A DNA stretch of 5,517 nucleotides from Chloroflexota bacterium (lineage in GTDB: Bacteria; Chloroflexota; Anaerolineae; Caldilineales; Caldilineaceae), in contig QEUW01000477.1 in NCBI GenBank assembly GCA_003577005.1, positions 1 through 5,517 of the forward strand. The letters are read 5' to 3'. Of this stretch, positions 1,179 through 5,408 are shown piece after piece. Below the pieces are notes generated by a model. The model was not told where the DNA came from. It made no database searches and saw only the letters and a list, made by a program, of their open reading frames with translations. The translations under genes and the position numbers were made by a program. How positions within the stretch are numbered: position 1 is the stretch's first letter; every line of letters begins with the position of its first letter.

Positions 1179-1245
1179 AAATTCATCACGTACTCATCCA
1201 AATCTATCACGGTCGCGGCGTTAGTATATCACGTTTTTATCACGC
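1179..1245 (+). promoter_or_regulatory. Phased ATCACG direct repeats, probable SARP-type operator
   Basis: ATCACG occurs four times, starting at 1185, 1206, 1228 and 1239, so the steps are 21, 22 and 11 bp, about two, two and one helical turns. The first two copies share a longer AAATYYATCACG context (1179-1190 and 1200-1211). A degenerate ATCCAA sits at 1196, 11 bp after the first copy. Known SARPs (ActII-ORF4, DnrI, AfsR) bind heptamer direct repeats with 11- or 22-bp periodicity just upstream of -10. With a heptamer ATCACGC the last copy ends at 1245, 8 bp from the TATAGT box, the spacing I recall for those activators. Binding by the adjacent regulator is inferred. Confidence 0.65.
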
Positions 1246-1253
1246 AAACTAGC

Positions 1254-1259
1254 TATAGT
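1254..1259 (+). promoter_or_regulatory. Candidate -10 box of the MFS/ABM gene cluster promoter
   Basis: TATAGT matches the -10 consensus at five of six positions. No TTGACA-like hexamer stands 16-18 bp upstream; that place is taken by the last two ATCACG repeats. This is the architecture of activator-dependent SARP promoters, in which the bound protein replaces a good -35. Transcription would begin near 1266, leaving a leader of about 145 nt before the transporter ATG. Confidence 0.5.
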
Positions 1260-2749: not shown

Positions 2750-3034
2750 ATGGTCATTCTGATGGTTCAATACAACGTTCGTCCCGAAAAAGCCGCCGAG
2801 TATGCAGCGTGGGCGGAGGCTAAGGTTCCTATCGCCTTGAGCACCCCGGGCCTGGTCGAGCTCAAGGGTTATCGCAATATCACCGGCGATCACCGGACGA
2901 CAGTTCTCGACTTTTTTGAGGATCTGGCCGGCTTCGCCACCTGGCGGGCGAACGAGGCCATCGCCCAAATTTTTGCTGAATTGTGGCAGTATGCCGACAA
3001 CGTGCATACCGAGCTGCTCGTCTCCGAAACCTAA
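2750..3034 (+). CDS. ABM-like dimeric alpha/beta-barrel protein (first copy)
   Basis: This 94-residue cytoplasmic protein has the size and pattern of the antibiotic biosynthesis monooxygenase (ABM) / dimeric alpha-beta barrel fold: a first strand ILMVQYNV (3-10), helix EKAAEYAAWAEAKVPIAL (13-30), PGLVELKGYRNITG (33-46), strand TTVLDFF (50-56), a helix from ATWRANEAIAQIFAELW (63-79), and a last strand HTELL. Family members act as homodimers; some are cofactor-free oxygenases on aromatic polyketides (ActVA-Orf6, TcmH type), others are cyclases, decarboxylases or of unknown role. No catalytic residue can be assigned with confidence. A textbook AAGGAGGT (2736-2743) lies 6 nt before the ATG. It starts 66 bp after the transporter. 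Its C-terminal third recurs at 5313-5408 as a truncated duplicate. Fold fairly sure; reaction unknown. Confidence 0.85.
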   Translation: MVILMVQYNVRPEKAAEYAAWAEAKVPIALSTPGLVELKGYRNITGDHRTTVLDFFEDLAGFATWRANEAIAQIFAELWQYADNVHTELLVSET

Positions 3035-5312: not shown

Positions 5313-5408
5313 GCCACCTGGCGGGCGGACGAGGCGGTAAGCCAAATCTTTGCGGAATTGTGGCAGTATGCCGACAACGTACATACCGAGCTGCTCGACC
5401 CCGAAACT
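5313..5408 (+). pseudogene. Truncated duplicate of the first ABM gene (C-terminal 32 codons)
   Basis: These 96 bases align without gaps to 2936-3031, with 84 identities by hand count. They encode the counterpart of residues 63-94 of the first ABM protein (ATWRADEAVSQIFAELW and so on), with 27 of 32 residues kept and the changes N68D, I71V, A72S, V91D and S92P. At least five codons differ only silently. The first 62 codons are absent, and the parental TAA is replaced by GGG, so the frame reads on to TGA 5505-5507. The open frame can be traced back to TTG 5265, which overlaps the VOC stop (TTGA), and its own stop overlaps the next ATG (ATGA). No good ribosome site precedes the TTG. I call it a gene remnant; a small expressed chimeric protein of about 80 residues is the alternative. 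Confidence 0.75.

Follow-up and report, generated by a model that had tools for sequence, protein, structure and literature searches.

A phased array of ATCACG repeats in the analysed window, a 5,517-nucleotide stretch of DNA from a Chloroflexota bacterium, most probably forms the cognate operator of a divergently encoded BTAD-NB-ARC regulator, working SARP-style as an activator site. A SARP-like operator of the neighbouring BTAD regulator had been proposed from the sequence alone. The proposal is now supported by further sequence comparison: because the layout of the repeats across the family, the position of the -10 box, conservation in the closest relative and the co-variation of repeat letters with regulator residues agree, these repeats very likely serve as its operator.

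As that sequence-only reading had described, four exact ATCACG copies lie on the + strand at 1185, 1206, 1228 and 1239 (steps of 21, 22 and 11 bp). In the first two copies the core is preceded by CAAATYY. The -10 hexamer TATAGT follows on the same strand at 1254-1259, 9 nt after the last hexamer (and its ACG) and 8 nt after the heptamer ATCACGC, with a predicted start at about 1266. No usable -35 accompanies it, since scanning the + strand of 1000-1480 with a consensus revealed no sigma-70-like promoter there. As a plain word ATCACG is only mildly enriched in the whole window (7 matches against 2.86 expected, with 7 reached in 5 of 200 shuffles), and the signal therefore lies in clustering and phasing, not in copy number. 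When the 344-bp intergenic region was shuffled 5000 times with its dinucleotides preserved, phased chains of at least three identical hexamers arose 4 times and chains of at least four once. The mild enrichment of the word, together with an exact 7-mer at a lag of 11 in 58 of 5000 such shuffles, might speak for repeats produced by chance; given the rarity of the four-copy chain, the retention of the array in the closest relative and the family-wide pattern described below, chance has a negligible probability.

The comparison with relatives refined the earlier reading of the array, placing the core operator in two 8-bp units, 11 bp apart, at 1226-1244. In the unit frame, which was defined from 66 divergent ACG-anchored loci, the predicted upstream unit is ATATCACG (1226-1233, + strand, copy 3) and the predicted downstream unit is TTATCACG (1237-1244, + strand, copy 4), one 11-bp step apart. 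Copies 1 and 2 (1185-1190 and 1206-1211, + strand) would be auxiliary sites. Additional upstream copies of the unit were considered as a family rule and rejected, since no single distance had them in more than 3 of 55-65 loci. A further copy 43 bp (42-44) upstream of the core pair was seen in 3 of 55 loci (the window, L026 and L036); it could serve in looping, act as an auxiliary site or be due to chance.

The presumed reader of the repeats is encoded at 3-1067 on the - strand by a gene that is cut by the window edge, leaving the N-terminal 355 amino acids. That the divergent gene next to the array encodes a BTAD protein was confirmed (PF03704, E 1.1e-28). The protein has the layout of the SARP family, an N-terminal OmpR-type winged helix followed by a BTA domain, and sequence matches to EmbR and AfsR span it from residues 3/8 to 259. 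Its predicted structure (pLDDT 94.6) has AfsR as the best fold match, while TPR proteins occupy the ranks from 5 on. Residues 62-79 form the recognition helix of the model, and T67, R70, H71, C75 and E25/T26 align with AfsR positions 84, 87, 88, 92 and 45/46, respectively; positions 84, 88 and 92, spaced by four residues, occupy one face of this helix. Behind the BTAD of the closest ortholog lies an NB-ARC domain (PF00931), both the ortholog's open reading frame and the window gene being cut. Large SARPs of the AfsR type have NB-ARC/NOD and TPR domains after their SARP part; no TPR part was seen in these two cut frames. A receiver domain was found neither in the 355 amino acids of the window, which hold only the BTAD, nor among the six families in the 763 amino acids of the ortholog, and the regulator is thus not an OmpR/PhoB response regulator by this feature. 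PhoB and PhoP are response regulators with a receiver domain. Their PHO boxes likewise consist of direct repeats with an 11-bp step, which an OmpR-type winged helix reads, and such repeats upstream of a -10 are typical of PHO boxes.

The window invites comparison with AfsR and the afsS promoter of Streptomyces coelicolor (PMC10936776). AfsR combines the same winged helix and BTA domain, and its extra ATPase domain has an NB-ARC counterpart in the ortholog of the window's regulator. The afs box comprises two 11-bp direct repeats at -40 to -19 with no good -35, and the first 8 bp of each repeat are contacted (PMC10936776). On our mapping, if transcription starts at 1266, the units of the window would occupy the corresponding positions, -40 to -33 and -29 to -22. 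The published SARP promoter rule asks for repeats 11 or 22 bp apart with the 3' copy 8 bp from the -10 (PMC10936776); the window follows it, with one step of 21 instead of 22, and its 3' repeat lies 8 bp from the -10 where the -35 is replaced or overlapped. Unlike in the AfsR/afsS case, the Chloroflexota site adjoins the gene of its regulator. PimR-type SARP-LAL regulators (PMC5930380) share intergenic heptameric direct repeats with 4-bp spacers, of which two are required for binding, and the occasional addition of upstream operators; PimR differs in a site that does not lie over the -35, in its C-terminal half and in its heptamer.

A scan of public genomes for the regulator confirmed 149 relatives, which belong to the Chloroflexota and not to the actinomycetes. 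The closest, L001 from Caldilineaceae bacterium CHL12, has a regulator with 86% protein identity. In this one ortholog the four repeats (including both auxiliary copies), their spacing and the -10 hexamer are all unchanged, as expected of a conserved operator, and ATCACG has these four matches only within 4506 bases. Because L001 is so close, its conservation alone is modest evidence. The first gene behind the promoter changed, but the operator and the promoter itself did not. In L001 the promoter is separated from the transporter by a small open reading frame and a STAS-like one (complete, 1195-1764 of L001). The window lacks about 743 bp of this DNA, and a relic of the STAS-like frame, its last 13 codons and stop (1304-1345, + strand), was left there by an apparent deletion. 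Two more distant loci, L241 and L273, have a core pair identical to that of the window and also carry a similar small frame behind the promoter, which makes deletion in the window lineage the simpler reading, and we infer that this lineage lost DNA between the promoter and the transporter gene. An inverted repeat at 1303-1312/1323-1332 was considered as a terminator and rejected; the terminator scan was negative, and the repeat falls within the relic.

Repeats of this kind recur upstream of other Chloroflexota BTAD genes. The first locus set kept the best 80 of the 149 confirmed relatives. L001, nearly a duplicate of the window, was left out along with L037 and L039 (less than 100 bp upstream), which gave 78 BTAD genes, those of the window and 77 loci, each with upstream DNA of at most 350 bp. 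An exact 7-mer recurred at a lag of 11 in 52 of the 78 regions, whereas shuffled regions gave 1.35 on average and none of the other lags between 8 and 60 exceeded 8; the count in a non-redundant subset was 27 of 45. Upstream of other long open reading frames at the same loci, the lag-11 count was 8/150, with 0 to 18/150 at other lags. A second set, from 149 new loci of which one had no usable upstream sequence, comprised 77 regions de-duplicated against the first (near-duplicate removal dropped 76 of 267 regions) and gave 40 of 77 at lag 11, followed by lag 22 with 13. The claim of a SARP-like repeat layout thus holds quantitatively across many Chloroflexota loci. Within the CHL12 genome, only 14 of 40 paralogs have a lag-11 7-mer, and the letters of the repeats vary from paralog to paralog.

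We also defined a complete site, without reference to ACG, as two 8-mers 11 bp apart (at least 7/8 equal) that are followed, after a gap of 9, by a -10-like hexamer on the outward strand, which leads away from the regulator. Such sites occurred at 49/114 and 32/77 loci and at 0/150 controls. Replacing the lag of 11 by 8, 9, 10, 12, 13 or 14 left at most 2 loci; the neighbouring gaps (7, 8 and 10) score high as well, since a longer repeat leaves room for sliding. Against the operator reading, no complete site was found in 110 of 191 BTAD upstream regions. Among nine distinct near paralogs of the window's regulator, L151, L152, L154, L155 and L156 each have a site of at least 6/8, and four (L234, L260, L261 and L112, which equals L153) have none. 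The longest neighbour is a divergent open reading frame at 62 of 75 loci with a called site versus 54 of 95 without.

When loci were aligned only on the ACG of their repeats, a -10 appeared by itself. A -10-like hexamer lies at a gap of 9 from ACG in 33 of 41 divergent loci of the first set and 20 of 25 of the second (53/66), on the outward strand, and no other gap between 0 and 30 has one in more than 3 loci. Of 40 loci in a set that was not de-duplicated, 26 have G at +8, as extended -10 promoters do, and shuffled regions yielded an ACG pair in 15 of 3820 cases. This spacing is what the SARP promoter rule prescribes, in the register of AfsR (PMC10936776). Operators called on the regulator's own strand (7 and 6 loci in the two sets) had a -10-like hexamer at gap 9 in 0 of 13 cases; these 13 calls were left out of the co-variation set, which consists of the 66 divergent ACG calls.

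This geometry bears on whether the bound regulator acts chiefly as a repressor, be it of its own divergent promoter or of the transporter promoter, a reading that we consider unlikely. It would suit an array set between divergent genes, and at several other loci, L035, L056, L062 and L064 among them, a TATAAT-like box was noticed by eye after the repeats on the regulator's strand, so that one operator may serve two divergent promoters. Against repression stand the -10 fixed 9 nt away on the outward strand, its absence from this position in the 13 same-strand cases and, in the window, the missing -35 within a geometry that is that of SARP activation (PMC10936776). Judged by this geometry, the operator is probably a site for activation. 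Two regulator monomers would stand side by side on the 1226-1244 pair, with one recognition helix per 8-bp unit, and would stand in for the missing -35 and bring RNA polymerase to TATAGT at 1254. The outcome would be expression of the transporter gene or, in L001, of the small frame, the STAS-like frame and the transporter. The scheme presumes binding, activation over repression, a dimer, a contact with sigma and gating by the NB-ARC part; SARPs activate as side-by-side dimers that touch region 4 of sigma.

The letters of the repeat unit co-vary with residues of the adjacent regulator. Over the 66 loci, the best of 103 alignment columns (AfsR numbering) was 92 for base 3, 88 for base 4, 84 for base 5 (followed by 88), and 45 and 46 for base 2; base 1 had no interpretable partner among these columns. 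In each set 92, 88 and 84 ranked first for bases 3, 4 and 5, and 45/46 ranked first or second for base 2. Phylogeny was treated through identity bands and subsets. Columns 46, 92, 88 and 84 again ranked first among pairs within bands of overall identity, and the same columns led in the 37 loci under 60% identity, with 45 ahead for base 2. In the 45-55% band base 4 was equal in 447/463 pairs with the same residue 88 and in 59/439 pairs with different residues, the pairs being non-independent. The first set alone selects 46, 92, 88 and 84; the second alone selects the same residues, but with 45 before 46 for base 2 and with 92 nearly tied with 45 for base 3. These comparisons suggest which amino acids of the regulator read which letters of the DNA. 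They also bear on the idea that another protein of the OmpR/PhoB type binds the repeats. The class of DNA-binding fold and the repeat step are alike, and the AfsR site is also recognised by PhoP (PMC10972967); an outside regulator, though, would not tie the repeat letters to recognition-helix residues of the adjacent BTAD protein, and the repeats vary between paralogs of one genome, so that this idea is very improbable. The neighbouring regulator is the reader favoured here.

Tables built from 41 loci were then used to match 25 other regulators with 17 distinct operators, the four code residues having been chosen on all 66 loci ahead of this held-out matching. The true operator reached a mean percentile of 0.889 and was uniquely first for 9 of the 25 regulators, compared with maxima of 0.72 over 500 random column sets and 0.67 over 300 shuffled pairings. 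Single-position predictions in the second set were imperfect, being correct in 15/23 cases for residue 92, 16/21 for 88, 17/23 for 84 and 12/24 for 46. Guessing the commonest letter gave 6, 15, 10 and 8 of 25, respectively, and the gain is small for 88.

Bases 6-8 were fixed by construction in the anchored calls because ACG was required. With the -10 required instead, R87 accompanies ACG in 62 of 74 cases and S, N or Q at 87 accompanies ATA in 5 of 7 (L055, L179, L189, L292 and L054, the last a Q row of doubtful alignment). The AfsR structure has R92 in contact with base 3, T88 with the base-5 pair and S46 with the backbone of bases 1-4 (PMC10936776). Residue 92 is thus paired with base 3 in the structure and in the Chloroflexota co-variation alike, whereas residue 88 ranks first for base 4 and second for base 5 in the latter. 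The partner of R92 at base 3 is T in AfsR and mostly G in our set, and the units end mostly in ACG instead of the AGC of the afsS -35 hexamer TTCAGC (PMC10936776). T88 is highly conserved in Streptomyces SARPs (PMC10936776), while the base-reading positions vary in Chloroflexota. In the window T84 fits C at base 5 and R87 fits CG; H88 and C92 are rare types, and the code table therefore gives no independent prediction of bases 3 and 4. It is likely that the Chloroflexota BTAD regulators are naturally diversified SARP-type activators, many beside their own operator, that share a near-modular code in which 45/46 reads base 2, 92 base 3, 88 base 4, 84 base 5 and 87 bases 7-8.

Looking forward, such a code, if true, would allow operators to be predicted from protein sequence and specificity to be changed residue by residue. 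Replacing T67/H71/C75 by Q/Q/H should shift preference to TTTTGACG over TTATCACG, and R70 to S should favour units ending in ATA over those ending in ACG. A phylum with up to dozens of such regulators per genome would gain defined operators and target promoters, the many natural regulator-operator pairs would become a test bed for DNA reading by the SARP winged helix, and in uncultured bacteria the sequence would reveal the closest targets of large signalling regulators of the NB-ARC type. Among the listed titles and abstracts of open-licence papers we saw no work on SARP-type operators in Chloroflexota, and novelty is provisional. RegPrecise has a Chloroflexi collection, and the main text of PMC3840689 mentions neither SARP nor AfsR.

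The presumed target, and the first complete gene behind the promoter, encodes an MFS transporter (1412-2683, + strand; PF07690, E 7.7e-19). Its homologs among the matches listed (120 of 626) include relatives with 70-85% identity; of the 46 family genomes, 16 contain a match at E <= 1e-60, with more than 41% identity in CHL12 only. We rejected a common function of the divergent genes, as 12 of 20 tested (of 49 eligible loci) had a Pfam family and these point to no one function. A CHL12 regulon defined by exact ATCACG-N5-ATCACG was also discarded, the two sites being the operator of the ortholog and one inside a 610-codon open frame. BTAD regulators are greatly expanded in this single genome, in which 57 stretches match the window's regulator, several of them pieces of one gene. 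A small open reading frame of the form RLW...WR...F..L...FL was seen just behind the operator-promoter at L001, L149, L222, L241 and L273. It was rejected as a general target: a regular expression for RLW...W found it at 4 of 82 called loci (L001, L149, L222 and L273, missing L241) and in 0 of 528 random stretches. The other neighbours in the window encode ABM monooxygenases, a methyltransferase and a glyoxalase-like protein; in actinomycetes, SARPs govern the production of antibiotics or other secondary metabolites. By eye, positions 5320-5407 are very like 2939-3032 (CCACCTGGCGGGCG...ACATACCGAGCTGCTCG), which belongs to the 3' portion of an ABM monooxygenase gene (2750-3034), and the end of the window is apparently a truncated duplicate of that part.
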